In this document: positions 8,436-27,022 of the stretch, in pieces
Numbering within the stretch: position 1 is the first letter of the stretch
Layout of the letters: every line of letters begins with the position of its first letter
From: a virus
DNA length: 29,765 nt
Direction: 5' to 3' (one strand)
Virus record (IMG/VR): IMGVR_UViG_3300008267_000246
Span: 1 to 29,765 of that record
The notes under the pieces: generated by a model
Told to the model about the DNA's origin: nothing
Databases searched by the model: none
What the model saw: the letters and a program-made list of their open reading frames with translations, nothing else
Program-made: the position numbers and the translations under genes

Positions 8436-11129
8436 ATGGCAGCTTTTGATTTTAGTTTATTTAACTCACTTTTAGGGGCGGGCACTAACCCTCTGACCGC
8501 TGCGGGAACAGCGTTTGGACTTCCTAGCTGTATTTTACAGTTAGGTTTAGATGCCTTAGGACTTCTCCCTACCGCGCTACTCGTACCCATACTAAAAGCT
8601 ATTTTAGCTGGAATGCGATTGGCTGATGGAGTTTTAAAAGCCATATTTGGAAAAATAAGAGATTTCCTTGGGTATATTGGAATCTTAGATGAGAATGGTG
8701 AATTCGTATTCTTATCAAAAATATTTGGTGCTCTTGGAGACAACGATATTGTAAAACTTCTAGCGGGAATCGCTGGATTTATTGCTGCCATTGGTGCGAC
8801 CGCTGGAAATCTATACGCGAACTATCAGAATGTATCAGATGCTATAAGAAGAATAAAAGAGTGTCTGGAAGCGTTCAAAGAGTCTAGGCGGCTACAGGAT
8901 AGAGGACTTGGAGAGCAGCCTCCAATGGACCCAGAAGCGTTTGAAGACTTCGTGGAGAGGAATCTTGCGACTGAGTTGATAGAGGCTGAGTCGGCCCTAG
9001 CCTTCATAGGGGATTCCAACAGGCAAGCTGAAGCAATAAGATCAATCATTAGAGATCGCAGAAATAACCCAAGCTTAGAACCGCAATTCGTTCCTGGCGT
9101 GTGTGAATTCTTTGAAGGAACCCCATTCGCTGCTAATTGCCCTCCTCCCGCGAGCGCGACAACTGAGACGGGCGAGAAGCCAATATTTAGACTGACATTT
9201 GGACCGCCAAAATCGTCAACAGGGCAATTTATTCTTTCCCAAGATGGATTGTATTTTGATTCACAAACAAGTGGTATATTCCCAGTACTGACATATTTGA
9301 ATCAAAAGAAAGCTCAATTGGACAAGGGAGATCTTTGGAAGTTCCTGCAAGATCCAAACTTAGGTGGAAGAGGTAAAGGATTCTCTACAAAAGATTTAAA
9401 CTTGTACTTCAATACGCTGCTAGATCCAACAGCAATAAATGATTCAGAATACTTAAAACTATACTACGACAATGATGGATTCTTACAAGAACTCTTGGGA
9501 AATAGAAACAAAAGAGTTTATGATCTGTCTGCACAAATATATGATTTAGAGCAAGATGATGCTCCATTATCTGTAATATTTAATTTTAAACAATCCCTTA
9601 TATCAGAAAACAATAGATTGCTTGAAAAGATAAACAAGAGAAAGAAGCAAATAGAATTAGCTATCGTGCTACCTTCAATATATCAGACTGGAATTTCATA
9701 CCCTCCAGGGGCAGTCCCTATTAACGATTTCTCATATCTGGCTGATACAAATATTGATTTAGATATACAAAAACAGAAAGCACTGAGCTTTAGCCAAGTT
9801 GATATATCTGGTGTCGTGTCCCCAATACAACTACAAAATGTATATGTAGAGACAAGGGCTAGCACTAGGAACTCAACTCTAGATCATCTCATTCTCGCTG
9901 AGAACGGAGATGGAGCCATCATATTTGATGGAAGCAGCGTCTCTTCTGTAGACGGTTTAGTACTCCAAACAGAAAACTCTCTTACAACAGATAACCTGTT
10001 TGCAATGTACAATTTCTTAGATACAGACGTTGTAATTCCATCGTCACCTCAGTTCTTATTAAGAAACTCAGCTTCTATAGGTGGGCAGTATTATGCACAG
10101 CTTGTGGCTAATAGCCCAGAGGACGTATTTAGTAGAGGTCTTGGCATACCTTACTTACAAGGGATAACTAAACAGTCGGGGACTACAACTAACTTAGTCT
10201 CAGGTCTTGGAAGTTATGTAAGACTTCCTGATGCAAAGCCATTTAATGATCTCCTTTACAGCCCAAATGGAGCCTCTATAGACTTCTGGGTTCATATGCC
10301 AAATATCAAATCAGATACAGGCATAGGAAATGTTTCAAGTCTTTACAGATTAGTTTTAGCTAATGAGAACAGCGGATCTGAGTTAGGGGCTAGCTCTGCG
10401 GACACTGAGTACATCTCTAACGACATGGGAACAAATACCGTTAGAGGATTCATGATGGGCTTCACAAGAGATAGAAGAATTACAAAGGGCTTGTTAGCGT
10501 CAAACTCTAACACAGATAACCCAGTCTCATCTACAGCGTTCTTTATAGCCCCAACTCAATCAACGTCGATCTCTTCAATATCCCTTGTTAACAGATCATT
10601 CTTTGATGGGTTGGATTGTAGGGCAAGTACTAAGTACCATTCAATGAAGATGGACATTTCTGGAAATCTAGAGAATTGCTCGTCAACATTCTGTCACTTT
10701 GCTGTGACCTTTGATTCTCGTCAGGACAAGATATCCATGTACTTTGATGGTAATCTAATAACAACATCAAGTATGTCTTATGTATTTGGCATTAGTCCAA
10801 ACACAATGCCTAATCTACCAACCTCAAAGAAGCCTAATAGCTTCTTCTATAACCCAATAACTGTAAACTCAACTGCTCCTACCACTCTTAAATCTGGCCC
10901 AGTCCTGGATAGCAACTTTACTCCTTGGATCGTGGGGGGCGGATTTACTGACGGATTCGCTTATGGAGGAAACTTCTTAGGTGGGATATATGGTGGAATA
11001 ATAAGCGGTCTAAGAGGTCGCCTTGGAAGTATTAAATTTTATTCAAAACCTCTAGAAAAAGATGAGGTATTAAATAATTACAATACACACAAAAATTTCT
11101 TTAAGAACATAGATACTTCTAAGTTATAA
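8436..11129 (+). CDS. LamG/concanavalin A-like domain protein with hydrophobic N-terminus, 897 aa
   Basis: A large structural protein of unknown exact role. Residues 1-130 are strongly hydrophobic and glycine/alanine-rich, with probable membrane-active helices near 30-60 and 106-130 (LLAGIAGFIAAIGATAGNLY). Residues about 130-450 are polar and partly coiled (SENNRLLEKINKRKKQIELA). The C-terminal third is a lectin-like beta-sandwich: IDFWVHMP near 612, CHFAVTFDSRQDKISMYFDG near 755-773, and GRLGSIKFYSKPLEKDEVLN near 861-881. This is the pattern of Laminin_G_3 domains, which bind sugars or act structurally. It lies between the spike and gp25-like genes, where core baseplate genes are expected, so it may be a baseplate-mounted binding protein or a protein delivered to the membrane. 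The ATG follows TAATTAAAAA, with no Shine-Dalgarno. Confidence 0.65.
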   Translation: MAAFDFSLFNSLLGAGTNPLTAAGTAFGLPSCILQLGLDALGLLPTALLVPILKAILAGMRLADGVLKAIFGKIRDFLGYIGILDENGEFVFLSKIFGALGDNDIVKLLAGIAGFIAAIGATAGNLYANYQNVSDAIRRIKECLEAFKESRRLQDRGLGEQPPMDPEAFEDFVERNLATELIEAESALAFIGDSNRQAEAIRSIIRDRRNNPSLEPQFVPGVCEFFEGTPFAANCPPPASATTETGEKPIFRLTFGPPKSSTGQFILSQDGLYFDSQTSGIFPVLTYLNQKKAQLDKGDLWKFLQDPNLGGRGKGFSTKDLNLYFNTLLDPTAINDSEYLKLYYDNDGFLQELLGNRNKRVYDLSAQIYDLEQDDAPLSVIFNFKQSLISENNRLLEKINKRKKQIELAIVLPSIYQTGISYPPGAVPINDFSYLADTNIDLDIQKQKALSFSQVDISGVVSPIQLQNVYVETRASTRNSTLDHLILAENGDGAIIFDGSSVSSVDGLVLQTENSLTTDNLFAMYNFLDTDVVIPSSPQFLLRNSASIGGQYYAQLVANSPEDVFSRGLGIPYLQGITKQSGTTTNLVSGLGSYVRLPDAKPFNDLLYSPNGASIDFWVHMPNIKSDTGIGNVSSLYRLVLANENSGSELGASSADTEYISNDMGTNTVRGFMMGFTRDRRITKGLLASNSNTDNPVSSTAFFIAPTQSTSISSISLVNRSFFDGLDCRASTKYHSMKMDISGNLENCSSTFCHFAVTFDSRQDKISMYFDGNLITTSSMSYVFGISPNTMPNLPTSKKPNSFFYNPITVNSTAPTTLKSGPVLDSNFTPWIVGGGFTDGFAYGGNFLGGIYGGIISGLRGRLGSIKFYSKPLEKDEVLNNYNTHKNFFKNIDTSKL

Positions 11130-11593: not shown

Positions 11594-13188
11594 TGGCATT
11601 CAAGGGTACAGCAGAATCTGATTTCATGAAGCTCGTAAGAGTTGACGATATTAATAAGTCTACATTTATTGATTTTGCTTCAACTGATTTCTTAAGTTTA
11701 AGAAATTCTTTACTAAAGTATATTCAAGCTGTATATCCACTTGATTACAATTATTTTGTAGAATCAGACTTTGGAATGATGCTGATTGAACTTGTCTCGT
11801 ACATGGGGCACGTTCTCTCCTACAAAGCTGACTATCTTGCGAATGAAAATTTTTTAAGAACTGCTAGATCAAGACAAAGCTTAAAAAATCTAATGCAGCT
11901 AATTGGCATTAGAATGAAAGGCCCGATTGCTGCGGCTGCTGATGCTAAACTAACTTTAGCTTCAAACCCAGGATGGCCCGCTAACTCATTTGTAACCATA
12001 CAGCCTCAGGATAGAGTTATTACGATAACCTCTCCAGAAGACGGTCTCCCAATCACCTACACGCTTTACAAAGTAGGGGCGGATGGAGATATTGACTCTG
12101 GAAACTCTACTGGGCAAATAAAGATTTTTGAGTCAGAGAAAACTACAAATACAACTTTAACAAATTTAGTTTTACTTGAGGGTTCTCTTGTCCTTCAACA
12201 AGGAACCTTCAGTGATACAGAATCTTTAAAAAGTGTGTCTTTGGAGCAGGGTCCAATTATTGAAGGCAGCGTGCAAGCTTTTATAACAGGGCAGGATCAG
12301 ACAAGCGGGGCATACCAGCAAGTAGATAATATATTCTACGCCTCAGGTGGAGATGATAAGGTGTTCCAACTCCTTTCAGATGAAACTTACAAAGGCACTG
12401 TAGTATTTGGCGATAATAATATTGGTAAAGTTCCAAAGTTAGGGGATTCATATACAATCATTTATAGAGTTGGCGGTGGAACTAGAGGAAATATTGCAGA
12501 GAGGGTAATTAATGCCCGTACAAACCTTTATTATCAAAGCGAAACAACCCCTCGTCAAGTAACAGTAGAGAATGTTTCTAAATCTACTGGGGGATCTGAT
12601 GCTGAGACTATTGAAAATGTAAAGAGATATGCTCCTTTAGCATTTAGATCACAAGGCAGACTTGTCACTCTCCTAGACTACAAATCTTTTGTAAACTCGT
12701 ATATAAGTTCATATGGGTCTGTTGGAAAAGCAACAGCAGCAACTAGAAGATCTTATTCTTCGGCGAACATAATAGATGTGTATGTCCTTGAGAAGGCTAA
12801 CAATCTTCAACTCAGAAAGTCTACCCCAGAGTACAAGCGTCAAATCTTAGCTGCCATGGAAGACCGTAAAATGCTTACGGATGAACTTGTAATTGTAGAT
12901 GGATTGATTAGAACTTTAGATCTTCAAATAACAGTTCGTCTGGAGAAGAAATATCAATTCCTTGAGGCTAGAATAAGACAATCACTAAGAGCGAAGATAG
13001 AGTCGTTCTTTAATATGGATAACAATGATTTTGGGAAAGCATTTATTCCTCAGGATTTAATGTACGAAATCTTTACAATCCCTGAAGTTAGGTATGCTAC
13101 GATTGATAATGTTCCAAGCCCAATCAATATAAACTTCAATGAGATCTTGCAACTAAATAACTATACCTTGAATATATCGTATGTCTAG
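11593..13188 (+). CDS. Baseplate J protein, gp6-like (XkdT-like), 531 aa
   Basis: Main wedge protein, forming the ring around the hub. The N-terminal part, about residues 25-100, has NYFVESDFGMMLIELVSYMG followed by a helix and NLMQLIGIRMKG, typical of baseplate J. The centre has VGGGTRGNIAERVINA near 293-310, then STGGSDAETIENVKRYAP and RSQGRLVTLLDYKSF near 330-370, the strongest family motif. The C-terminal domain has the usual beta-alpha pattern ending in short strands. Length is close to the usual 350-660. The start overlaps the gp25 stop by one base (TAATG) and its own end overlaps the next gene by 8 bases, indicating translational coupling and equal-dose production of the wedge set. Confidence 0.92.
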   Translation: MAFKGTAESDFMKLVRVDDINKSTFIDFASTDFLSLRNSLLKYIQAVYPLDYNYFVESDFGMMLIELVSYMGHVLSYKADYLANENFLRTARSRQSLKNLMQLIGIRMKGPIAAAADAKLTLASNPGWPANSFVTIQPQDRVITITSPEDGLPITYTLYKVGADGDIDSGNSTGQIKIFESEKTTNTTLTNLVLLEGSLVLQQGTFSDTESLKSVSLEQGPIIEGSVQAFITGQDQTSGAYQQVDNIFYASGGDDKVFQLLSDETYKGTVVFGDNNIGKVPKLGDSYTIIYRVGGGTRGNIAERVINARTNLYYQSETTPRQVTVENVSKSTGGSDAETIENVKRYAPLAFRSQGRLVTLLDYKSFVNSYISSYGSVGKATAATRRSYSSANIIDVYVLEKANNLQLRKSTPEYKRQILAAMEDRKMLTDELVIVDGLIRTLDLQITVRLEKKYQFLEARIRQSLRAKIESFFNMDNNDFGKAFIPQDLMYEIFTIPEVRYATIDNVPSPININFNEILQLNNYTLNISYV

Positions 13189-15595
13189 TCCTATAAAATT
13201 CATTGATAACAGGCAGTTCCACAAATCAAATTATGTGGACGCACTAAAGAGTGTTGTCCCATCACTTTACTTTGAGGAAGATTACGCTAGAAATGATAAA
13301 AAAATAGATATCCTAGACCAAGTAATAAATTCACATTTAAAAATAATAAATAGCTTTTCAAGTATTTTAAATATAAGTGCTATTCCTGGCACGGTGTTTA
13401 GTGGTATAAATTCTGCTAGCGGTATAGCCCCTTTCTTTGTAAAGCAGAACGAATTAACTAATATAAACACTAATGATTTTGAAAGAAGAATACTAATACC
13501 TTTAAACAGATCCTTTAGAGATTTCAATTCTAGTGCAGAGTTCTCAGACTTCTTAGAAGAAGAACTATTACCTGGAATAAGATTAAACTCCCCAACTTTA
13601 GATTTTGTTGGGGATGGGCAAGCCTCGTCAAATCACACTTACTTAATTAATAATCTATCTTGGTTTTATTTTTTAAACTTAAGTGGTCCCCCCTCTCTAG
13701 CTTATAATTCTTCAGCTTACGTTCACGATATTTTAATTTCTAAAATTTACGAACGGCAAGAACTTAAGACAAATGATGGGATTAGAGGCTTAACAAATTA
13801 TGTATGGAAGAACTACACAACTCAGTCATGGTCTAGCCTAGGAGTTCTACCCTCCGATTTTGTCCCAAATGTAAACTCAGACTTTCCTGTATGGACAAGT
13901 GGAACTCAACAGCTTGATAAACTTTTAACACTTGTTGATGTTGTCTACTCTCCTCTCTATATTGATGATGGAGACTTTAAAGTTAAGAATGCTATTGATG
14001 ATTTCTTGGAGAATTCTTATTTATTAAGCGATAAGAAATTTCAAGGGCCATTCCTTAAACTACTAAAAGCTTTTTCATTTGCATTCGCGGATTACTCTAA
14101 TCAAATAGATAGATTAGAGTCTCTGAATGATTTAGATGAGTGCCCAGATGATTACTTGCCATTACTAGCGGATTTAATTGGATGGAGACTGTTTGGATCT
14201 GAGCCAGATAGATGGAGATTACAGTTAGCGAATGCAATAGATATTTACAAGACTGTAGGAACTAAGAAGTGTGTTCAACTTGTAGCCGACTCCATGTTTG
14301 GGCAAGACGTATTTGATGCTAGTTCAACTATAAGTGAACTTTGGGAATCGTATGTCCCATTCTTAATTCAGTATTCTTTAGCGACAGAATCCCCATTACT
14401 TAAAGATTTTTCAACCTGGAATACCGGAGTTGCTTTGAGTCTAGGAGTGTCCTCTTTCAACGCAAGTAGCATGGATGAAAACATAAAGCTTTGTGTTGAC
14501 AAGATAATGCAGGATACAGTATTTGAATTTCCAGAGAACTTCTACTTAGGAAGAGATTTGTTCAATCTAAACTCTCCCGACTTTGTATTTAATTATCGTG
14601 GGAATACAAACAAAATTCCACCCTTTGAAGAAATCCCCTACTACACCAAAGTTATCATAACAGACGAATTAATAAGAGCTATCGAGGACAGACTAATTTG
14701 TTTTGAAGTTCCAGAAGATTTTGCTGTAAAGGTCGGAAACTATATTAGAAAGCACACTATAGATAATAGCGATGATTACTCTATTACCAATAGCTGGCTA
14801 TTTTTTACTCCAAGTGCTGAGTATTCCCCTAATTGGAATTCTGTTGTAAAAGATATAACTAATTCTAGAATTGATTATCTACCTCTTTGGAATGGTAAAT
14901 CTTCTCACTTCCAATCCTTGTTAGATACTTCTAATTTTAATTTCGGAAAAACTTCTTTAGAAGCCGACTCAAGGGAAGTACTTTACATGGTTGCGGAAAC
15001 TATTAAAGAGTTCTCCCCTGCCAAATCAATACCTAGTGTAATTGCAAGGTCCTCTGCGGAGGATGAAATATCTTATAATGGAGACTATAGATTTCCATCA
15101 ATAAATATACCCAAAGCTGATTTTGGACAAGTAAGTTCTGTAAGTTCTAACGCTCTAGCTGGATTTGGAATCTCAGCGTTAGCCATGTCAACTTATAAGA
15201 GAGGATTAACTGCAACATCAGTCGCTACATTCTCAAGGGGAAGTGTAGATACAGTTATAGATTCTCTTACAAATCCCGAGGGAACAGTTGCTCTTTTGCC
15301 TCGTAGAAATCACAGAAGAAGAGACTTAAAGCATATACTGCCTAAAGAAGGGTATTATGACCGTGGAGGGTTTAATATGCCTTCACAATTACAAAATTAT
15401 GTAATACAAGGGTCATTAAGTGGAACATTCATTCCTCTAGGATTGATTCCATCTTCTATGCAATTTGTTCCTATCCCAGACTATAATAATATACCCCCTA
15501 TATATGGTAAATGTGAAGATTTATCATCATCTAGCGTCTATTCAGGATTAATAGTTAGTAATACTTTCCCTGTTAGAGGCTGGGTGCAGAGCTAA
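13181..15595 (+). CDS. Tail protein I-like wedge protein with long extensions, 804 aa
   Basis: Probable third wedge protein (P2 gpI, PBSX XkdU, gp7-like role), linking wedges to fibres. The core is at about residues 300-385: a helical region with NQIDRLESLNDLDECPDDYL, then PLLADLIGWRL and ANAIDIYKTVGTKKCVQLVA, the standard tail protein I pattern. P2 gpI is only about 176 residues; here about 290 residues precede and 400 follow the core. The N-terminal part starts with KFIDNRQFHKSNYVDALKSV, a wedge-type leader; the C-terminal part contains tyrosine- and serine-rich strands that probably form a fibre-attachment domain. It overlaps the J gene by 8 bases (ATGTCTAG) and ends 17 bases before the depolymerase gene. 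The order gp25, J, I is the canonical one, supporting the call. Confidence 0.8.
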   Translation: MSSPIKFIDNRQFHKSNYVDALKSVVPSLYFEEDYARNDKKIDILDQVINSHLKIINSFSSILNISAIPGTVFSGINSASGIAPFFVKQNELTNINTNDFERRILIPLNRSFRDFNSSAEFSDFLEEELLPGIRLNSPTLDFVGDGQASSNHTYLINNLSWFYFLNLSGPPSLAYNSSAYVHDILISKIYERQELKTNDGIRGLTNYVWKNYTTQSWSSLGVLPSDFVPNVNSDFPVWTSGTQQLDKLLTLVDVVYSPLYIDDGDFKVKNAIDDFLENSYLLSDKKFQGPFLKLLKAFSFAFADYSNQIDRLESLNDLDECPDDYLPLLADLIGWRLFGSEPDRWRLQLANAIDIYKTVGTKKCVQLVADSMFGQDVFDASSTISELWESYVPFLIQYSLATESPLLKDFSTWNTGVALSLGVSSFNASSMDENIKLCVDKIMQDTVFEFPENFYLGRDLFNLNSPDFVFNYRGNTNKIPPFEEIPYYTKVIITDELIRAIEDRLICFEVPEDFAVKVGNYIRKHTIDNSDDYSITNSWLFFTPSAEYSPNWNSVVKDITNSRIDYLPLWNGKSSHFQSLLDTSNFNFGKTSLEADSREVLYMVAETIKEFSPAKSIPSVIARSSAEDEISYNGDYRFPSINIPKADFGQVSSVSSNALAGFGISALAMSTYKRGLTATSVATFSRGSVDTVIDSLTNPEGTVALLPRRNHRRRDLKHILPKEGYYDRGGFNMPSQLQNYVIQGSLSGTFIPLGLIPSSMQFVPIPDYNNIPPIYGKCEDLSSSSVYSGLIVSNTFPVRGWVQS

Positions 15596-15612
15596 TTAAA
15601 TAAGATATTTGT

Positions 15613-18600
15613 ATGATTGAGATATTCCCAAGCCCATTAAGTTTTACAGGAAGTTATAATGCTGCTGCCGTTGAAGCCTCTTTGCAAACTAAATGGCCTG
15701 GAACAATTGTTAGATTAATTAATGGTAATGCATTTGCGTCACTAGAAACCACAGCGTCTTACTCAAATATAGAGTCCTCTGCTTTTGATGTAGAAATTTG
15801 GAATCCTGCTACAAATTCTTATTCTTCAACATTTGTATACAAATCAGGATTTTCTGCTCTTGGAGCAGGGCAGTATTACAATTACAGCGTTTGGGGGGAA
15901 GGTGTAACTGGAGTTGCCCCAAATACTTATACTCTTTGGAACGTGAGTGCCACGCCGGAGTTTAACTATGTAAACTTTGGCACTGATGAAGCTGAGTCAA
16001 GAATAAAAGTAACCTACAACAAAGGAAATATTTCTTCTATCGACATTGGGCCATATTCAAAGAACTTTAATTCTAAATGGTCGAGAGTTACAGGCACTTT
16101 AAACTCTGTAGAAATATCAGGAATAAAATCTAATAATAAGTTATTTATACAGGTTAGTAGCTCAATGGGGTTAGACGCTTCAACTCCTTTGATGGTCTTT
16201 GCAAATCCTATAAGTCCTACTCCTGCGCCTGGGTCAATTGTATTTTATGTTGCCCCTGGTATTTTACAGGCAAAATTATTTAATAACACTTACAGTTCAA
16301 CTGGATTTTATTATCCTCTTCTACCATTTACGGCAACTTTAGATCAGCAAATAGATCTAAAAACTTGGGGATTAACTTTATCTCCAACTAATTCTGTTTT
16401 ATATTTAGATGGCGGTTCCTACATTGATGGAACTTTTGGATGTAGGGGTCTTAGTAGTGTTAAGATAATGGGAAGAGGGGTAATAGACGCTTATCGCAAA
16501 AATGATTGGTTGCAGGCTTGGTCATATTTGGCTGAGGGAATTTCCGATGAAGATAAGCTACCTTATTCACCCTTTATGGGATTTAGTTCTTTCGCTGATT
16601 ATGGAGCGATATACAACGCTAAAAATAATACATTAGAAGGTATTACTGTAGTTAATTCTATTACCTATAACAATACTATTTATTTTACTGATGCTAATAA
16701 TGTTAAAGTTATAAATCAAATACCTAATGGAGATTTTATTAAGGTAGGGGAACCCGCTGAGTTTAATAACAGAGTAAATAGAACAGCTAGGTTGACAAAT
16801 TGTTTTGGATTTGTTGGCGACGATTGTTTTTTCCCAAACGAAGTGGACTGCGACACCATAGTAAGTTCCTGTTACGTTATTCCACTATATGCAACTGTAT
16901 TTAGAAGCTACGATGGGAAATACAACGGGAAAGCGTACAACCAACCTTCGTATGGGTACTCTGCAATAGATGTAGATGTTAGAAGTTACGCTTCAATTGG
17001 ATACTACGATAAAAATAGACCGCTTTACTCTCAATTTAAAATTTCTATTTTTGGACTTTGGAACACTCAAGAAAAAGAAGCCTTCGGTGTCTTTGATCCA
17101 AGTTTTGCATACTATATTGGAGATTGTTTATTTTCAGGAATTAGAGTAGAGGGTTATTGCGACGTACCCTTATTTGATATTGGTGTAAGATCATATCCAA
17201 GAACATCTCAAGATATAAACTCTGTTAATCCATATACAATAGACTATCCAGAAGTATACGGCAATATTTCTGGAATAAAATTTGTAGACATAACCTCAAG
17301 TTCACATCCATATAGCAAGTACAAATGGGTATACTCTAATGCTATATTCTCAACAGAGCCTAAATTTAGTCCAAATAATCTAACATTTTCAAATGTTAGT
17401 ATCGACGGTAAATACATTACTGAAGGAAATAAAAATGATTTCTTTCTTTGGGAGAATCGTCCAGTCCCATTGGATTTAGAAAGTACATTCTATAGTCCTG
17501 CCAATGGAAGCTCAATAGCTGACATATATTTTTTAATAGGCGACTCTATTGCTTTTGGAGTTAGTGGGTTCGCAAAAGACTTTTCTTCTACTTATTATTC
17601 AGGAGTATTCACTAGCGGAGAGGCTGTCCCAGGATGTTACATTTGGAGGCTTACTCAGCCTCCAGGGGAAGTAACCGGAGGTCCAGGGTTCTATCCGTTA
17701 AAGCCAGGAAAATCTACAGGTAATGTTGAATCTACTTTTGTAGACCCCTATGGGGACACGGGACTTGAAACGGTTTTAGCACATAAACTTAGAAATGATT
17801 CAGGGGACCGCGATATTTACTTTATTAAGATTGGAGTTGGTGGCTCTATGCCTGTATCTGCGGTATCAGCAGATGGATATGCCGCAGAGAACTGGAGTAC
17901 AAGTAGTGCAGGAAGTCTATTTTATGAATTTATGGCTTCCGCAACCTCAGCAATTGGATGGATAAGAAATCAAAATAAATATCCAAATTTGAAAGGGGGT
18001 GTCATTTGTCTTGGAACAAATAGACCTGAATATGTTGCAAATCAAGCGTTTGCTAGTTCGATGATTATTAAAGAAACAAGTTCTTTAATAGCGGGAGTCA
18101 GAAGTATATTCGCATCTTCAACTGGTAATGGGTTAAATGTTGATACTTTCTACACAAATATTGTCTGGGCTGGACCTCTGGAATTAGGAAGTACTGGAAC
18201 TGCTACTAGAAATTATTACGAAAGATTTAATGATCGGCTACAAGATTTAGATTTGAGTAGCATTAGATTCAATTATTTACCTACGCCTAGTGCAGCAGAG
18301 TATTTAGCAGATTCTGTTCACTACAATATAAAAGGATATTCAAAGATAGCTGAGGATATTTACTCTATCTTTAAACATAATACAAGCAGCGTAACAGACC
18401 CAACTTTAAATCCTCAGGGTAATCTGAAGTTTTTTGCAAATGGTGCAAGAGTATTAGAAACATACAATCCTAGAAAACCTGTTAGAAAATCAACAAAATA
18501 CAAAGTTGAAGTAAATGATGGTATACAGTATAATCCTGCTCATGTGTTTGGGAGGTCAAGATCCGCAGTTGCTGCCTACTCATCACAAAATCCTGGAGGC

Positions 18601-21600
18601 CCAGCAGCAACTAAGCTTTGGTTAAGTGGAGCAAATCCTGAAATGAGTTTTTTAACATTTGGAGCTTCGTCTACTTCAAATATTGTTAAAATTGAAAAAA
18701 TAGGGGATAGCATTTCTACAATTCAAATTAGACCAAAATCAAAAAACATAAGTTATGAAGTTACAGGAGGTAAAGCTTATGTTACACTGAACCCCTTAGA
18801 TCAGATTTGGGTAACTGTAAATAATGAAGTATCAAGTCCGCTCTTTTTATTCTGTGATCCGCTTAAACCCCCAGTACCCCAATCTAAATGTTTGTACTTT
18901 CCCCCAGGTACAACTTACTTATCCTCCTTGCCAGGACCTCATATATCCAAAGACTTTACAACTACAGCGGGAACTACCCTTCATCGACTTTACGGGGTAG
19001 GCTTCTCCTCAATTAATCAATATGGCTATACCCCTGGGGAGGATTTTACACTTTACTTTGATGGAGGAGCTTATGTCGTAGGGTCTTTAGATCTTAGAAA
19101 TAGGCATAATATCAAATTACTAGGACCAGGAGTTCTGTCTCTAGAGAACATCCCAAAAGAATCCGCAGGAGACCCCAGATTATCTTATATTGAAAACTAT
19201 AATTATGTTCAAGAAAGAGATTCTGGTCAAATACCAATTCATTTTAATTTAGAATTCGATGAAGTTACAGTTGGTGGAATTGTATCGGGGTCTAAAGCTC
19301 CTTCAGGAAATTATTTAAACGGATTAACTATAGTTGATACTCCTTTCCATGGAGTAAAAGGTATAAACGGTATAGAGAATTTTAAATTAATAAGTCCTTG
19401 GGTTCCAAACACCGATGGATTTGCTACTTCTCCAGACCATTCAGTTCAAGATAATTTTCAATATGCAAAACATTGCTTTTTGTTTTGTGCTGATGATACT
19501 CTTTATTTACCATTTAATGCAAGCACATTTAATAAAGATTTTCTTTGGTTAGGCGGAAAAGTCCACATAAGTTCTATTGTTGCTTACACCGTAAATAATA
19601 CTCCGTTAGCTAATTATTCACCTAGATTTTATTTCAATCAAGTAAGTAAAAGTCACCCCGCAGTAATAGAGGATATAGATCTAGGGTCTTATGCTTACGC
19701 AAGGCCAGATATTGAAGTTGGATTAAGGCTTACAGTAGATGGATCTTCTATGCAAGACTCTACTGTGTTAGATCCAGTAAATTATGGAATTTATGATATA
19801 ACTTTAAAAAATATAAGATTTGAAGATGAGATTGAAAATGAATTGTTTTGGCTTGGTAATGTACCCGACCCTTTTGGAAACAACCCACTGGTTGTTGATA
19901 GAGGAAATGAATTTGGTGCAATGTCTGGGATAGTAATTGACGGGGTGTCTGCAAATGGGAGTCCAACTAATACGAGAATATACCAAAATAGAATTTGGGG
20001 CAAGGATGCTAGTAGTAGACCGTACAATATAACTTTTAAAAACATATTTATTAACGGTCAGTATGTAACTAGCGCAAATAAAGATTCATACATAAGCTGG
20101 GCATCAGCAACTAATCCAACTTTCACAGATCCTGATGCCTACAACTCAAATATCTTATTTGTATTTGATTATGTTCCTGAACAAGGGTATCAAACAAATA
20201 AAGGAGTTCGTGTAGACTATCTTTGGGATCGAGGGCAGTTGCACCCATTTGTAGCTACTCTGCATTACATTCAAGAGCAAGCTAAAGTAATGCAAGCCTC
20301 CGCATATTATGATGATAATTTAAGTGAGGTAGCAGCAAGTGGCTGGTGGAGAAATTTACTACACAACTATGCTAATACTCTAACAGAATCAAGCGGGGCA
20401 TTCCCTAATTCGTTTGATAATTATACGACTTACAAATTTGGAAGAGATTTTCAAAAGTTGTACTACGATTATACGCACAACTTTAAACGTCATAAAGCTG
20501 TGCCTACAACCATAGAATTAGACGGCCCAACTATATTTGGGCATACATTTGGATCTGTTCTGTACAACTCTGATTTATCAAAGAATAGCTCCCTAACAAC
20601 TCAATATCCAGAATATATAACTTCTAGCTTAACAAATGTTTACGAGTTTAAAGCTGGGAGTGTGTTATTCTCAACGTCAGGATCTTCCTCAGGAACCTAC
20701 GTTGCTTCCTCAATAACTGATTGCTATGTTGAGGTATCTGAACTAAGAAATTCAGGAATACTATCGCACATAGAATTTTCTCATACTTCAGGAACGAGTG
20801 TAAATAATTCTTTTGCTGTGATTAGATTAAACAAAGCAGACCGACTTGGATACCGTTATAATCCATTGAACTACGAGAACACCCTTATAAAACACAAGGG
20901 AGCACCTGGGGGATTTAGCAGAGTTATCTTTGATATTAGTAAATACTCAACTGATTCAAATTTAGGTTATGATGTATCTACTAACTTCTTGAGTCCTGAG
21001 CATGATTTCAAACTTAACTTCAAAACAATCATTGCTAATAATAAGGGAGAGATTTTTGGTGGATCCCCAGTAGGTATTTGGATACACACTAAACCAGAGC
21101 TTGGAAAGATTTGGAGTTTTACAGATGGGGGTAGGTGGGTCCAACACTCAGTATCTTCCTTAACAAAATCAGAAGTTGTAGACCATTACTCTCATATTTT
21201 TGAGCTACCAACGGAACAAAGAGATTTAGAAAGTTCTAGCATACGTTGCAATAGATTTAGACTCATAGGAAATAAAAATCAAGAAAATGATGTTATAGCA
21301 TCATTATCAGAATCTGAGTTCACTGATATTGAAGTTAATTTTAATACAAAGAACTATGCTTGTAGGGGTGAGAAGATTGATGTACCTGAGGAGTATTTTA
21401 GCAATGTAGCCCAACAGGTACATCGTCTAGGCCAGAAGTATGTAATAGAAGTATTCAGCTTAGATAGAGATTTAGATAAGTTTACCCTTTTCTATGATTT
21501 TAATTTAGTAGATTCTACATTAAATAAGTGGTCTAAGCCCTTTGTTCTTGGGAAGGGTTCCACAGGATTGCCTGTAGGGGATCTATATTGCAAGGAATAC

Positions 21601-21828
21601 CGTGTAGATCTAACTCCTCGTCATCTATATAATATAATTAGATACTTTAACGAAATTGCTGGAGGTGCAACTTCTGTAGGTTATGCAAGTCGTAATGAAA
21701 ATCAGACTAGCGGAATCTACGAGTCCAGAGGTGGCAGCAGAATAAACTATGTGGAAAATCCAAATTGGAATCCAAATACAAAATCTGCTCAAGGTCAGTT
21801 AATTAACGAGGTTACAATTAAAAATTGA
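15613..21828 (+). CDS. Giant tail depolymerase: two GH49-like beta-helix units flanking an SGNH esterase, 2071 aa
   Basis: Likely surface-polysaccharide-degrading tailspike. Residues about 75-612 and 965-1500 are tandem homologous units, each a beta-sandwich followed by a right-handed beta-helix. Matching marks are PYSKN/RPKSKN, PLMVFANP/PLFLFCDP, DGGSY/DGGAY, GRGVI/GPGVL and a closing NGQYVT-type strand. The acid pair is D403-D404 in unit 1 and D1294-D1295 in unit 2, with an upstream Asp in PNGDF (374) or NTDGF (1268). This resembles GH49/GH28 glycosidases; no GH28 GHG motif is visible. Residues about 625-930 are SGNH hydrolase: IGDSIAFG with nucleophile Ser645, IGVGGS (741-745), LGTN with Asn803, and DSVH with Asp900 and His903. 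The C-terminal 570 residues are unrecognised. It follows the wedge genes, so attachment to the baseplate is expected. Substrate unknown. Confidence 0.75.
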   Translation: MIEIFPSPLSFTGSYNAAAVEASLQTKWPGTIVRLINGNAFASLETTASYSNIESSAFDVEIWNPATNSYSSTFVYKSGFSALGAGQYYNYSVWGEGVTGVAPNTYTLWNVSATPEFNYVNFGTDEAESRIKVTYNKGNISSIDIGPYSKNFNSKWSRVTGTLNSVEISGIKSNNKLFIQVSSSMGLDASTPLMVFANPISPTPAPGSIVFYVAPGILQAKLFNNTYSSTGFYYPLLPFTATLDQQIDLKTWGLTLSPTNSVLYLDGGSYIDGTFGCRGLSSVKIMGRGVIDAYRKNDWLQAWSYLAEGISDEDKLPYSPFMGFSSFADYGAIYNAKNNTLEGITVVNSITYNNTIYFTDANNVKVINQIPNGDFIKVGEPAEFNNRVNRTARLTNCFGFVGDDCFFPNEVDCDTIVSSCYVIPLYATVFRSYDGKYNGKAYNQPSYGYSAIDVDVRSYASIGYYDKNRPLYSQFKISIFGLWNTQEKEAFGVFDPSFAYYIGDCLFSGIRVEGYCDVPLFDIGVRSYPRTSQDINSVNPYTIDYPEVYGNISGIKFVDITSSSHPYSKYKWVYSNAIFSTEPKFSPNNLTFSNVSIDGKYITEGNKNDFFLWENRPVPLDLESTFYSPANGSSIADIYFLIGDSIAFGVSGFAKDFSSTYYSGVFTSGEAVPGCYIWRLTQPPGEVTGGPGFYPLKPGKSTGNVESTFVDPYGDTGLETVLAHKLRNDSGDRDIYFIKIGVGGSMPVSAVSADGYAAENWSTSSAGSLFYEFMASATSAIGWIRNQNKYPNLKGGVICLGTNRPEYVANQAFASSMIIKETSSLIAGVRSIFASSTGNGLNVDTFYTNIVWAGPLELGSTGTATRNYYERFNDRLQDLDLSSIRFNYLPTPSAAEYLADSVHYNIKGYSKIAEDIYSIFKHNTSSVTDPTLNPQGNLKFFANGARVLETYNPRKPVRKSTKYKVEVNDGIQYNPAHVFGRSRSAVAAYSSQNPGGPAATKLWLSGANPEMSFLTFGASSTSNIVKIEKIGDSISTIQIRPKSKNISYEVTGGKAYVTLNPLDQIWVTVNNEVSSPLFLFCDPLKPPVPQSKCLYFPPGTTYLSSLPGPHISKDFTTTAGTTLHRLYGVGFSSINQYGYTPGEDFTLYFDGGAYVVGSLDLRNRHNIKLLGPGVLSLENIPKESAGDPRLSYIENYNYVQERDSGQIPIHFNLEFDEVTVGGIVSGSKAPSGNYLNGLTIVDTPFHGVKGINGIENFKLISPWVPNTDGFATSPDHSVQDNFQYAKHCFLFCADDTLYLPFNASTFNKDFLWLGGKVHISSIVAYTVNNTPLANYSPRFYFNQVSKSHPAVIEDIDLGSYAYARPDIEVGLRLTVDGSSMQDSTVLDPVNYGIYDITLKNIRFEDEIENELFWLGNVPDPFGNNPLVVDRGNEFGAMSGIVIDGVSANGSPTNTRIYQNRIWGKDASSRPYNITFKNIFINGQYVTSANKDSYISWASATNPTFTDPDAYNSNILFVFDYVPEQGYQTNKGVRVDYLWDRGQLHPFVATLHYIQEQAKVMQASAYYDDNLSEVAASGWWRNLLHNYANTLTESSGAFPNSFDNYTTYKFGRDFQKLYYDYTHNFKRHKAVPTTIELDGPTIFGHTFGSVLYNSDLSKNSSLTTQYPEYITSSLTNVYEFKAGSVLFSTSGSSSGTYVASSITDCYVEVSELRNSGILSHIEFSHTSGTSVNNSFAVIRLNKADRLGYRYNPLNYENTLIKHKGAPGGFSRVIFDISKYSTDSNLGYDVSTNFLSPEHDFKLNFKTIIANNKGEIFGGSPVGIWIHTKPELGKIWSFTDGGRWVQHSVSSLTKSEVVDHYSHIFELPTEQRDLESSSIRCNRFRLIGNKNQENDVIASLSESEFTDIEVNFNTKNYACRGEKIDVPEEYFSNVAQQVHRLGQKYVIEVFSLDRDLDKFTLFYDFNLVDSTLNKWSKPFVLGKGSTGLPVGDLYCKEYRVDLTPRHLYNIIRYFNEIAGGATSVGYASRNENQTSGIYESRGGSRINYVENPNWNPNTKSAQGQLINEVTIKN
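15835..17448 (+). repeat. Depolymerase unit 1 (first GH49-like copy)
   Basis: This covers residues about 75-612 of the 2071-aa protein. It aligns by eye with 18505-20112 along its full length. Probable active-site acids are D403-D404 in FVGDDCFF and D374 in PNGDF. The usual NTDG-type motif is altered here, so this copy may have another specificity or only bind. Confidence 0.6.
17485..18402 (+). other. SGNH esterase domain inside the depolymerase
   Basis: This covers residues about 625-930 of the 2071-aa protein. All four SGNH blocks are present and in order: GDS (643-645), Gly-rich block II (741-744), GTN block III (801-803) and D-x-x-H (900-903). Family knowledge (SASA/CE6-type O-acetylesterases) suggests removal of acetyl groups from a polysaccharide; the substrate is inferred. 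Confidence 0.75.
18505..20112 (+). repeat. Depolymerase unit 2 (second GH49-like copy)
   Basis: This covers residues about 965-1500 of the 2071-aa protein. It is homologous to 15835-17448. It keeps a more typical acid set: NTDGF with D1268 and CADDTL with D1294-D1295, so it looks the more likely to be catalytically competent of the two. Confidence 0.6.
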
Positions 21829-21829
21829 T

Positions 21830-22801
21830 ATGCTAGTTGACGGAGCAGGAGAAATAATTGTTGATGCTTTCACAGCTAATAGAAGTTTTGCTTCTATCCC
21901 GTCTGCGTCTGCGATTCTAGACACATCAAATTACACTATACAAGCTATAAGTTTCGGCAAAGACGCAGAGGGATTCCGACAACACGCGCACATAATCTAC
22001 ACTACCTCATCCTCCCAAATAATAAAAGTTTTATCTTACGAAGCCACTTCAATCCAAACCTACCATACTTCCGCAACAGCACAGTATCTAGAAGATCTAG
22101 GATATAGACTTTACCCAGAGTCGCCCTCCCCAATACACAGAAGATTGGAGTCTAAGTCCACGATTACAAATTATTCTTCAGGGGTACCTGACATTGGACA
22201 CTGTTTAAATACAGCAATTCATCCAACCTTAAGTTCCTTTCACCATCTCATAGGTTGCTACCCGACTTCAGGGGGGACAAACTTCTGGATGTTCTCCTCC
22301 GTCGCTACTCCATCATCTACCATAATATCTGGAACTTTAAGTAGCTTTTTTAATTATTATGGGATCATGGATGCTTCTGGATTTTTAACGGTTGCTAACG
22401 GAAACGCAGCCTACCATTTAAGTTTATCTAACTCCACTGACTACACAAAAGGGGGAATTCGTGTTTGTGCCAGCAATTTCCCTAATTCAATAAATGTAAT
22501 TTGTAGAATTATAAGAGGGGATGCTGGGTCACTATTATTATTTGGTGGGCTTTATCATATAGGGCTTTGGGTTTTAGATTTAAAAGAAACATTAAAGCAA
22601 GGAATAACTGCACCTTTTAATTTTAATACTCTAAATAATCAAAGAAAATATAAGCTTTTTGCTAAAAAAACATTTAACAAAGATCTTTTATTTTGCAAAG
22701 ATGATTCTGGGTATAGCGGTTTAAAAGATTTATTTGCCATAGGTGGGTCTCTTAATAACCAAGGTTATGTTCAGATAATATACAAACTTGATTTCGCATA
22801 A
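21830..22801 (+). CDS. Phage virion/tail fibre-associated protein, 323 aa, function unknown
   Basis: I recognise no catalytic domain. The N-terminus reads ASAILDTSNYTIQAISFGKD (about residues 25-45), a motif I associate from memory with virion proteins in fibre regions of large phages. Residues 50-250 are rich in Ser, Thr, Tyr and His, with predicted beta strands; the C-terminal 70 residues are basic and hydrophobic. There is no signal peptide. The gene starts one base after the depolymerase stop (TGATATG) and is followed two bases later by the 203-aa gene, so the three are probably made together. An adaptor or fibre accessory role is an inference from position. The first half is noticeably C-rich compared with its neighbours. 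Confidence 0.65.
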   Translation: MLVDGAGEIIVDAFTANRSFASIPSASAILDTSNYTIQAISFGKDAEGFRQHAHIIYTTSSSQIIKVLSYEATSIQTYHTSATAQYLEDLGYRLYPESPSPIHRRLESKSTITNYSSGVPDIGHCLNTAIHPTLSSFHHLIGCYPTSGGTNFWMFSSVATPSSTIISGTLSSFFNYYGIMDASGFLTVANGNAAYHLSLSNSTDYTKGGIRVCASNFPNSINVICRIIRGDAGSLLLFGGLYHIGLWVLDLKETLKQGITAPFNFNTLNNQRKYKLFAKKTFNKDLLFCKDDSGYSGLKDLFAIGGSLNNQGYVQIIYKLDFA

Positions 22802-23416: not shown

Positions 23417-26400
23417 ATGTTTATTAAAGAAGATCTGTACACAACCATAGGTTCTCAAAAACTTTATCACTGCTGGACTGATAAGGTAACAAAGTTTGAT
23501 TCAAGCTCATTCTATAACTGGGAACAAGACAACCTCCCAGTGTATGATTTAGATGAGAGAACTTACTACCTTTGGGAGAAGATGGGGTATCCAACTTCAA
23601 GCATCCCAGGAGTAGCCTTGGTTGTTTCTGCTGATGCTCCTGACTCCGCTGTAGCCTGTAATAAAAACATTTTTAAAACTGTAAGTGCTGCGATTGATGC
23701 TCTGCCAAATGTTATCAACTTCCCCGTTGTAATTGAAATTGCTAGCTTTGGTAATCTCGGGGATCTTATACTTGATAATTACAAGTTTGGTCCGAGGGGT
23801 TCTATTGAGATTATAAATAGAAACTTTGCAAATGGGTATGCTGATGGATATTTACAGAATCTTGGAATTTGGAATCCAATTTTAATGTCTAGATCTTCCG
23901 CAGACGGTAATAACCCGTACTACCACGGATCAGCCTTTTCAACAAACTATGGAGTATTTAAAGACACTGGTTCGGGTGGTTTAATTAACGGGTTACTAGA
24001 GACATTTGCAATCAGAACTCATTTTGCAATGGCTTCTGCACTTAGTATCTCTTCTTTAGTTTTTAGCGGTAACCTAGGTCCTGGAAATACTAACGATGTA
24101 AGGCTTGTTCAAAATTTAAATGGATTTGTATCAAGATCTAAAGCATTAAATAGTGGAAGTATTTGGCAAATTAATTTTCCATCAATAAATACTACAACCC
24201 ATAATTCTAGATATTCAAAATCAGATTTAATTATAGCAAGCAGAAATACTATACATCCGTTTAGTGGGGCAGGAGCAGCGTCTCTTACTTACCATGATAA
24301 CATATATTACAAATCTTATGATTTGAATCCAGAAGCTTATGAAAATTTAGGAATCTACGATGCTAGCACTATTGATGACTTAAACTCAAATGAAAATTTA
24401 TTTTTTGCTGATGAGAGTTTAGGACTTAATGGAGTAAACGGATTATTTTATGGAAACAGATTAACTAAGCTTATAGTTAATAATTGCGACGGCCCTATTT
24501 ACATAAGAAATTTCTTTTTAGATGGGAGTGGAGCAAATCTAAAAAATAATAATTACGGAGTAGAGATAAATAATTGCAAAAATATTTTCATAGAAAATTT
24601 AGTTTCTACAAGATATAGAAAAGCTGGGTTTATATTTAACAATTCAAATGTTGTTCTTCTTAGAGGTTGCGTTGCCACTAGAAATTATGATTTTGATAGC
24701 AGCAATAATAGAATAACGGGACCTTGGGCTACTAGAAGAATAACTGATAGTTTAAATACTACTTCAGGAATTCCTTATCTTGATTACGGTGCTGGTCTTG
24801 TAGCTAACAATACAAATATAACAATCAGCTCTACAAGAACCATTGAAGAGCTTTTGGTAAGTTCCTATTCATATAACAGAACTTTACAAAATAATGGGTC
24901 TACTGGATACGCATTCTCTTCTGCTTTCACTAAAAATTACATTTTTGAATTTAGCAAAAATGCAAATGGTATTATCTTAAATAACTCACAATTAATTAGT
25001 GATGAGTTATTTAAACAAAATCAAACAGACCATTATGCTTGGACAATGAATTTAGATATATTCGATAATGTTCAAGATGGAATGTCTTTGATAAACTCTA
25101 AGTTATCTTTCAATGGAAGAACTCACTTTGTAGGAAACTTAATAGGGCTTAGATTAAATTCTTCTGTATTTGAAATAGATAAAGCATCGTTTATTTATAA
25201 TCAAAAAATAGGATTGATTGCAAACAATTCAACAGTACTATACGGTAAGAATCTGTTACCCTATGTAAATAACGGAAATCCAACAGAAACTAATTCTCCA
25301 ACTTATTTCAATAAAAATGGAAAGCATTTAGTTCTTGAAAATTCAAAATTTACTCCATTGTTTACATCGTCAATGGATAAAATATACGATTTGATAAGTT
25401 TCCTAAATCCAATAGGAACTAAGATGCCTGGGCAGAAAGATATAACACCAGGGGTGGAGATAACAAATAACTCTAACGCAATATTGGTATCTCCTTACGA
25501 GACACGAGATGAATTTCATTCAGTAGATAATAATTCAGCTAAAGCTTGCAAAGGTGCAGCTATAAGTGTTACAAATAATTCTAAAGCTACTCTGATAGGA
25601 ACTCAGCACGGAGCAACCAGAATCTCAGGACCTAAAGGTCGGGAAAGACATAAAAATCTAGCCGCTGTATTTGCCGGAAATAATTCAACAGTAGAGTTAA
25701 ACGGACCAACTGTTATTGGAAATTACGGAGTAAACCTATTAGCTGAGAATAATTCCGTAATCAATATACAACCTCAAAGAAATGAAGGAGAGGGAACTTT
25801 AGATGTTAGTTCATTCAATCTTTCAAATGTTTTAAACCATACCGCTGTTGAGTTGCATAGCACTAGAGCTTGTATTGTAGTGGATAACCACTCTCAATTA
25901 ACCGCTAGAGATCTTGGGTCCTACAAGTATAACTGGGAGTTTACTGGTTCGTACTACTCTACTGACAGTTCAAAGCAATTTAATTACAATATAGACAATA
26001 TAGAAACTTATGTAAGCGGAGGAAGTCTACAGTTCTATCCAAATCCAATTTTCCCTTATGGAGTAACTTCATACAATAGTACAACATTCCCTGGGCAGGC
26101 TTCCGCTACTATGAGCAGTAGAGCTTTTAGTCTTGCCGCAAATAATAGAAACCTTCGTTATTTTGTTGATACTGATACTGCATTTAATGATTTTAGTGGA
26201 ACCACAACAGGCGGTATGTGTGTTAGAGCATTGAATGACAGCTTAGTAAATATAACAAATGTAAACTTCCCGTGCGGGTGGTGGAATGCTTCGGGTCCTT
26301 ATTACGATAACACAATTACACCAGATCTTGGAGGTTTGTGTTATCGTTTGTACATTTGGAATATAGCAGATAATTCACAACTAAAAGCTTCCTATGCTTC

Positions 26401-27022
26401 TGTTAAGGGAGTTCACCCCAAGGCGGCAGGATATACTGGACCCCTAGGAGTTTGGACAAGCGGGGCTGGAGTTGTGTTAAGCGGTCTGCCTTCAACAACC
26501 CCTGATACTAGCAGCACTTCTATTCTAGATTATTTTGGAATAGCTGCAACCTCAGCCAATCCTTTTGGAAGATCTACGGCAACTAATTACGGTCCATTTA
26601 GATTATATTTCTCGATAGATCCCGTTGTAAATTCTCTAAGTTCTATCCTGGACTCAAATAATGATTACACTAATTATATTCCTCAGATATACTCACAAGG
26701 GTATCAACCTTCGGGGAATATGCAATGTTTAACTAGCTCTATTCATAGCTTTGCGCTTAAGAGGATTTCAGGTGGAAGCATCGCTGCCTCTGGCTATTAT
26801 TACGGCAATGAAGTTATGGATAAAGATGGCTATGTTAGAGTTTTCCTGGATGAATCGTCCGCTGAGATTTTTGCTAATGCAAAACATTGTGCTACAGGAA
26901 AATCTAATAATGCTAAGTTAGTTTCAATATACTATCCATTTGAAAATGCAACTTATGGGTCGTTTTATAATGACACTGGAATTAAGTCGGTAAACTTCTT
27001 TGATATACAGAGAGATAACTAA
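23417..27022 (+). CDS. Beta-helix tail fibre/tailspike protein, 1201 aa
   Basis: Likely receptor-binding fibre with a pectate-lyase-like fold. Residues about 20-60 hold a docking motif NWEQDNLPVYDLDERTYYLW that resembles one in the next gene. Residues about 70-130 (KTVSAAIDALPNVINFPVVI) match the usual lead-in of phage beta-helices. From about 370 to 1000 there are many short turns of the type hydrophobic-x-N-N-S-x-hydrophobic (ANNTNI, LNNSQL, ANNSTV, TNNSKA, GNNSTV, ENNSVI, DNHSQL), spaced near 21-23 or 35-45 residues: an asparagine ladder along coils of about 20 residues. I see no clear catalytic acid cluster, so it may bind rather than cut. The start lies one base after the preceding stop; the end overlaps the next ATG by one base (TAATG). 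Confidence 0.75.
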   Translation: MFIKEDLYTTIGSQKLYHCWTDKVTKFDSSSFYNWEQDNLPVYDLDERTYYLWEKMGYPTSSIPGVALVVSADAPDSAVACNKNIFKTVSAAIDALPNVINFPVVIEIASFGNLGDLILDNYKFGPRGSIEIINRNFANGYADGYLQNLGIWNPILMSRSSADGNNPYYHGSAFSTNYGVFKDTGSGGLINGLLETFAIRTHFAMASALSISSLVFSGNLGPGNTNDVRLVQNLNGFVSRSKALNSGSIWQINFPSINTTTHNSRYSKSDLIIASRNTIHPFSGAGAASLTYHDNIYYKSYDLNPEAYENLGIYDASTIDDLNSNENLFFADESLGLNGVNGLFYGNRLTKLIVNNCDGPIYIRNFFLDGSGANLKNNNYGVEINNCKNIFIENLVSTRYRKAGFIFNNSNVVLLRGCVATRNYDFDSSNNRITGPWATRRITDSLNTTSGIPYLDYGAGLVANNTNITISSTRTIEELLVSSYSYNRTLQNNGSTGYAFSSAFTKNYIFEFSKNANGIILNNSQLISDELFKQNQTDHYAWTMNLDIFDNVQDGMSLINSKLSFNGRTHFVGNLIGLRLNSSVFEIDKASFIYNQKIGLIANNSTVLYGKNLLPYVNNGNPTETNSPTYFNKNGKHLVLENSKFTPLFTSSMDKIYDLISFLNPIGTKMPGQKDITPGVEITNNSNAILVSPYETRDEFHSVDNNSAKACKGAAISVTNNSKATLIGTQHGATRISGPKGRERHKNLAAVFAGNNSTVELNGPTVIGNYGVNLLAENNSVINIQPQRNEGEGTLDVSSFNLSNVLNHTAVELHSTRACIVVDNHSQLTARDLGSYKYNWEFTGSYYSTDSSKQFNYNIDNIETYVSGGSLQFYPNPIFPYGVTSYNSTTFPGQASATMSSRAFSLAANNRNLRYFVDTDTAFNDFSGTTTGGMCVRALNDSLVNITNVNFPCGWWNASGPYYDNTITPDLGGLCYRLYIWNIADNSQLKASYASVKGVHPKAAGYTGPLGVWTSGAGVVLSGLPSTTPDTSSTSILDYFGIAATSANPFGRSTATNYGPFRLYFSIDPVVNSLSSILDSNNDYTNYIPQIYSQGYQPSGNMQCLTSSIHSFALKRISGGSIAASGYYYGNEVMDKDGYVRVFLDESSAEIFANAKHCATGKSNNAKLVSIYYPFENATYGSFYNDTGIKSVNFFDIQRDN

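Follow-up and report, generated by a model that had tools for sequence, protein, structure and literature searches.

Payload-Loaded Half of a Phage Baseplate Wedge Gene with Two GH49-Type Units around an SGNH-Like Domain

The window analysed here is the whole IMG/VR virus record IMGVR_UViG_3300008267_000246 (29,765 bases), and one of its products, a protein of 2071 aa, is the payload-loaded half of a baseplate gene and not a conventional tailspike. We think it fairly probable that this protein represents one of the two halves of a conserved wedge gene of the baseplate, loaded with three carbohydrate-active modules and anchored by a C-terminal adapter. The preliminary description of this DNA had reported a tail protein with two homologous units around an SGNH domain; the adapter of about 540 aa and the exchangeable slot in front of it go beyond that description and change what the protein is.

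The split wedge gene, its adapter and its slot

Baseplate genes in the window encoded a gp53-like wedge protein, a gp25 wedge protein, a Baseplate_J/gp6-like protein and a protein of 804 aa, and this gene set is a contractile-tail baseplate cluster. The 804-aa wedge protein matched Pfam Tail_P2_I with E 8.5e-4, narrowly short of the cut-off, and it ends with FPVRGWVQS followed by TAA. Directly downstream lies the uninterrupted ORF of the 2071-aa protein. By sequence, the full-length protein had no match in Pfam, PHROGs, PDB or GenBank phages. The features are as follows.

13181..15595, + strand: wedge protein of the baseplate, 804 aa, with a weak match to Tail_P2_I; upstream half of a gene that most relatives have as a single ORF including the adapter
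15596..15612, + strand: split gap of 17 nt from the wedge stop to the restart of the payload gene (TAA..ATG junction)
15613..21828, + strand: payload plus adapter protein, 2071 aa (unit A, SGNH-like domain, unit B, adapter), open ORF
15763..17460, + strand: unit A, aa 51-616, GH49-type beta-sandwich plus right-handed beta-helix (Foldseek, VIA, local alignment)
17494..18432, + strand: SGNH-like domain, likely esterase, aa 628-940 (motif order, homologous slot inserts)
18448..20142, + strand: unit B, aa 946-1510, GH49-type (Foldseek, VIA, profile against bacterial GH49)
20194..21828, + strand: conserved baseplate adapter, aa 1528-2071, beginning near DRGQLHP (common to enzyme-free phages as C-terminal end of the wedge protein)
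20548..21516, + strand: CBM4/22-like jelly roll within the adapter, aa 1646-1968 (VIA, Foldseek)

The final ~540 aa also occur, conserved, in contigs free of enzymes; there they close the wedge protein within one ORF of 1300-1400 aa. The slot is bounded by PVRGW upstream and DRGQLHP downstream. Among 81 wedge loci surveyed, some of them on contigs that are near-copies of each other, wedge and adapter were fused with an empty slot in 50, fused with an in-frame esterase-type insert of 320-360 aa in six, and split in 18; the other seven were too short to classify, although two of them run on beyond the wedge like the insert class. No empty slot was found among the 18 split loci. Five of them carry GH49-type units, 11 a beta-propeller-like domain and one a start of no assigned type, and one stops at the contig edge; every readable payload (16/16) was GH49-type or beta-propeller-like, the latter being a putative call from Kelch-like repeats and weak Kelch matches. 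In all split loci where the start could be read (L207 was left out of this comparison), the wedge ends with P[VI]RGW and up to a few residues, followed by TAA and, 2-17 nt later, ATG.

Payloads other than GH49 were also carbohydrate-related (SASA, galactose-oxidase-like set domain). The galactose-oxidase-like set domain was found in the payload of locus L024 with E 1.9e-17.

The jelly roll of the adapter, modelled with pLDDT mostly of 60-90, matched CBM4-2 (3jxs) in VIA with Z 11.7 (160/166 aligned, rmsd 2.7), and Foldseek gave CBM4/CBM22 entries with E 4e-3 to 6e-3.

Relatives carry different parts of the same array. L001 has unit A, the SGNH-like domain and the adapter without unit B, on a backbone 78-88% identical; the sequences to either side of the absent unit are in frame. 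A B-like unit (43% identical to unit B) precedes the adapter in L002 and another unit does so in L003, while a propeller takes this place in L004, L005 and L020. L003 and L004 have near-identical backbones and wedges with unrelated payloads, and a tree of gp6 and wedge proteins requires at least three changes between split and fused state across well-supported branches. Because of this payload contrast and these tree changes, the slot is read as a repeatedly used exchange point. A lone unit of 543 aa in a different context (L016) means that units also travel without the adapter.

The 2071-aa chain might instead be a chimera, with an L001-like and an L002-like phage joined during metagenomic assembly. 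The array was obtained from a single record, and no second contig with unit A, SGNH-like domain and unit B was found in viral_contigs. Against the chimera, the flanks to either side of unit B match one relative, L001, on a single contig (77-78% DNA identity), the reading frame is kept at the two junctions, which fall at domain linkers, the G+C content is even along the gene (0.35-0.39), and unit B is just 43% identical to the L002 unit. We therefore consider a chimera very improbable.

Fold and catalytic residues of the two units

Units A (aa ~51-616) and B (~946-1510) can be aligned end-to-end, with a blastp score of 107 bits, E 1e-28 and 24% identity over 576 columns. The Smith-Waterman score of this pair was 338, far above 500 shuffles (47 ± 6, maximum 74), and comparing unit A by profile against the remaining units gave E 6e-39. 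The tandem homologous units of the preliminary description are thus confirmed. Its boundaries (75-612 and 965-1500) were nearly right, but the true starts lie about 20 aa earlier in both units.

That description had also proposed structure prediction and fold search as a check on the units. Two AlphaFold models were computed separately from shallow alignments (6 and 14 sequences), and their mean pLDDT was low (44.5 and 56.5), therefore we relied on the ranking of the searches and not on geometry. For these low-confidence models, GH49 came first each time. The unit A model (2-616) found isopullulanase 3wwg at the top of Foldseek (E 5.9e-13), with VIA Z 23.7, 412 residues aligned and rmsd 3.6; the other GH49 entries had Z of 23.1 (1wmr), 22.0 (6nzs) and 21.6 (1ogm). 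For unit B, 3wwg was found by Foldseek with E 9e-9 and by VIA with Z 20.7 (422 aligned, rmsd 4.5), followed by 1wmr with 20.2 and by 1ogm and 6nzs with 18.9 each. A single search of a viral structure library gave weak matches only, mostly to the jelly-roll part, a result that does not argue for absence.

The enzyme class had earlier been given as GH49/GH28 from motifs. GH28 and GH49 together make up clan GH-N, with a common fold and catalytic machinery (PMC7939477). In our search GH28 was the next family by VIA, with Z up to 15.9 for unit A and up to 14.2 for unit B, and it covered the helix part only. The GH49 matches to the low-pLDDT models span the beta-sandwich as well as the helix at full two-domain length in both units. 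The GHG motif, which follows the catalytic DD in GH28, is absent from the entire 2071 aa. GH49 is supported as the better assignment for both units because of the Z gap of 6-8, the matched sandwich and the lack of GHG, so the GH49 part of the earlier class holds and the GH28 part does not.

GH28 membership is ruled out by the lower VIA Z and the missing GHG motif. The curated GH49 model in Pfam gave no score for any unit up to E 10, so we name the units GH49-type without assigning them to GH49 itself.

For comparison at sequence level, the PF03718 draw and a broad PF17433 draw yielded no GH49 in the first genomes examined, so the reference set was taken from one genus draw: 12 proteins of actinobacterial genomes scoring PF17433 at E 7e-69 or better. 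Against these 12 bacterial GH49 proteins, unit B together with the units of L002, L003 and L016 gave an hhalign probability of 97.4 (E 9e-12), and all six units together gave E 2e-7. The N/W-TDG..DD pattern of the unit B type aligns onto the QTDG..NDD strand pair of GH49. Candidate catalytic residues of unit B are the acid D1268 (19414) in NTDG and the base pair D1294/D1295 (19492-19497). Those of unit A are the acid D374 (16732) in NGDF and the base pair D403/D404 (16819-16824), and these three Asp match GH49 by local alignment only. No bacterial relative was found in a genome scan with the unit patterns.

Unit A alone was not significant against the GH49 profile (E 0.015). It carries NGDF in place of the TDG of GH49 and unit B, and it is without the Trp of the W-Y-x-TDG strand. 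The unlike acid strand suggests that the two units have distinct roles, or that unit A only binds. From their sequences, units A and B probably cut or bind different linkages, because they share 24% identity and differ in the active-site strands.

The weak profile link and altered acid strand of unit A, and the CBM-like domain of the adapter which makes binding a theme of this protein, would also fit GH49-type units that are mainly binding modules. The fold would then be kept for attachment to a surface glycan, hydrolysis would be weak or absent in unit A at least, and the chemistry would fall to the esterase or another module. This is somewhat unlikely in our view, as D403/D404 are invariant across six divergent units, the third Asp is present in all of them by local alignment, and the full TDG..DD register is kept in unit B and its relatives. 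We prefer hydrolysis at least for unit B.

Compared with GH49 dextranase and isopullulanase of clan GH-N (1ogm, 6nzs, 1wmr, 3wwg), the units have the same beta-sandwich followed by a right-handed beta-helix across the whole unit, and unit B and its relatives have the Asp acid and the Asp-Asp base pair in register. The differences are the tandem arrangement within one phage protein that also has a baseplate adapter, and the divergence of unit A at the acid strand.

The middle SGNH-like domain

The domain between the units has SGNH motifs in order: GDS643-645 (block I), GVGG741-744 (II), GTN801-803 (III) and DSVH900-903 (V). Candidate residues are S645 (17545), N803 (18019) and D900/H903 (18310-18321). 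This ordered pattern of four blocks appeared in 22 of 200,000 shuffles of the domain (about 1e-4). The domain had been called complete earlier; its completeness is seen in the four ordered motifs and not in structure, the AlphaFold model having pLDDT < 50 over aa 614-945.

The domain is 74% identical in L001. It is homologous to slot inserts of L194, L201 and L192 (E 4e-11, 2e-6 and 2e-4, in a small database), and the inserts of these three loci retain GDSxAxG, GxN and a final HY. GDS, GxN and H are retained in five homologues. Scans with the SGNH domain only recovered L001 alone, and the distant homologues were reached only via the wedge scan. In L176 and L196, the inserts in the same slot are SASA carbohydrate esterases (PF03629, E 7e-10 and 2e-9, above the Pfam cut-off), and the insert of L222 is narrowly below the SASA cut-off. 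Comparison of the middle domain with the SASA-type slot inserts by hhalign gave a weak link, E 5e-4 with probability 32, against 0.25 for the reversed control. Because the homologous inserts keep the motifs and SASA esterases occupy the same slot elsewhere, the middle domain is likely an esterase, as judged from its sequence.

Alternatively, it may be a relic of the SGNH fold, or an unrelated fold with chance motifs, which would leave two hydrolase units and a structural spacer. The low pLDDT is consistent with a spacer, as is the result of the database searches: no Pfam or PDB match was found for the domain (Lipase_GDSL of Pfam reached only E 0.13), and hhalign against GDSL reference proteins was not significant. 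A spacer does not easily explain the four motifs in an order rarely reached by shuffling, their recurrence in the L192, L194 and L201 inserts, or a slot that takes true SASA esterases in other phages. We thus regard the spacer as clearly unlikely and keep the esterase as the preferred function.

SGNH domains are established in receptor-binding proteins of phages, and two of them were shown to be esterases (PMC13123978). Like those of G7C gp63.1 and of Klebsiella prophage receptor-binding proteins (PMC13123978), the domain here is of SGNH type in an adsorption protein, with predicted removal of acetyl groups. It differs in standing between two hydrolase units of the same chain, and its sequence is far from the GDSL and SASA references.

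Relation to known phage enzymes and a model of enzyme exchange

Depolymerase tailspikes usually have an N-terminal virion anchor and a C-terminal beta-helix. The order is different here, since the conserved baseplate part is C-terminal and the enzymes are N-terminal. With the tailspikes of HK620, Sf6 and CBA120 (TSPs), the protein shares the right-handed beta-helix and a presumed role on surface polysaccharide, but the structural match to them (Z up to 13.4) is under that to GH49, the polarity of the anchor is reversed, and two helix units plus an esterase-like domain stand in one chain.

Domain mosaicism is established for receptor-binding, tail and baseplate proteins of phages (PMC10684548). 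As in those proteins, enzymatic domains are swapped on a conserved structural part; here the slot is inside the wedge gene, and large payloads come with a stop and restart that divide the gene. No description of GH49 in a phage tail was found in the open literature, the scope of this search being papers outside subscription.

Large modules arrive together with a TAA and a new start, and the second polypeptide that results has the former end of the wedge as its C-terminal adapter. We propose that the adapter still docks to the wedge; the split halves would most likely re-associate in the baseplate, and the enzymes would be held on the baseplate and presented from it by their C-terminus. Contact with host glycan may be made by the CBM-like domain. 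The SGNH-like domain would strip ester groups off the host surface polysaccharide, and unit B, perhaps also unit A, could cut the polysaccharide backbone by the inverting reaction of GH-N with one Asp acid and two Asp bases. Such cutting might clear a path to the cell. The stepwise breakdown of an acetylated polysaccharide in the preliminary description would be a joint action of this kind and stays a hypothesis.

For the wider lineage, we see the chances as evenly balanced that widespread myovirus-like phages use a slot in the wedge gene as a loading bay for enzymes. Small esterases would enter in frame, whereas the insertion of large enzymes of beta-helix or beta-propeller type would bring a stop and a restart, with wedge halves that re-associate; modules could be stacked, as in unit A, esterase and unit B, and GH49-type hydrolases would be anchored by their C-terminus.

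The finding places GH49-type, alpha-glucanase-like folds on a phage baseplate, in tandem and with an esterase-like domain. The natural series of empty slot, in-frame esterase, one unit, unit plus esterase, and unit plus esterase plus unit makes the contribution of each module testable. It also gives a concrete model of how phages may change their surface-polysaccharide enzymes while the rest of the baseplate stays unchanged: the point of exchange is fixed, and large payloads are associated with a split of the gene.

Payload modules in related loci

In the related viral locus L024 (L024:3019-9635), the propeller-type payload, the module which fills the main slot between wedge and adapter, is itself interrupted by a galactose-oxidase-like segment (GO-like_E_set match, E 1.9e-17), giving a payload inside a payload. 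A stop and restart is found at this nested insertion too, with the ORF ending at 6645 and the next start at 6648. A GH49-type unit of 543 aa stands alone at L016:7833-9464 in an unrelated gene context, and is the sequence nearest to bacterial GH49 (blastp E 3e-8; the database was small). At L169:3853-4635, a locus where wedge and payload are split, the payload start (261 aa, incomplete) showed no match with any known payload type.

Other large ORFs of the window

8436-11129: ORF of 897 aa that weakly matches concanavalin A-like lectins close to its C-terminus (Laminin_G_3, E 2e-4)
23417-29556: two large conserved ORFs, of 1201 and 844 aa

The C-terminal end of the 897-aa ORF is also conserved in the related contig L001. 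Pfam and PHROG gave no significant match for the 1201- and 844-aa ORFs, of which most related loci carry homologues (identity 32-57%).

Inserts in wedge, adapter and downstream gene

The wedge part of L032:4029-9599 itself holds an insert of ~540 aa (DUF4832 match, E 9e-8), with the main slot ~50 residues downstream, and this insert is a second exchange point. At L243:3186-8039, the adapter is interrupted by a ~520-aa insert, which looks internally repeated, with adapter match on either side.

21830-22801: next gene downstream of the payload gene, 323 aa

Its counterpart at L011:9535-11526 carries an insert of ~335 aa, as does that of L010, and L178 has an ORF of 646 aa, similar in size to the insert-bearing gene of L011. 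The downstream gene is possibly another slot.
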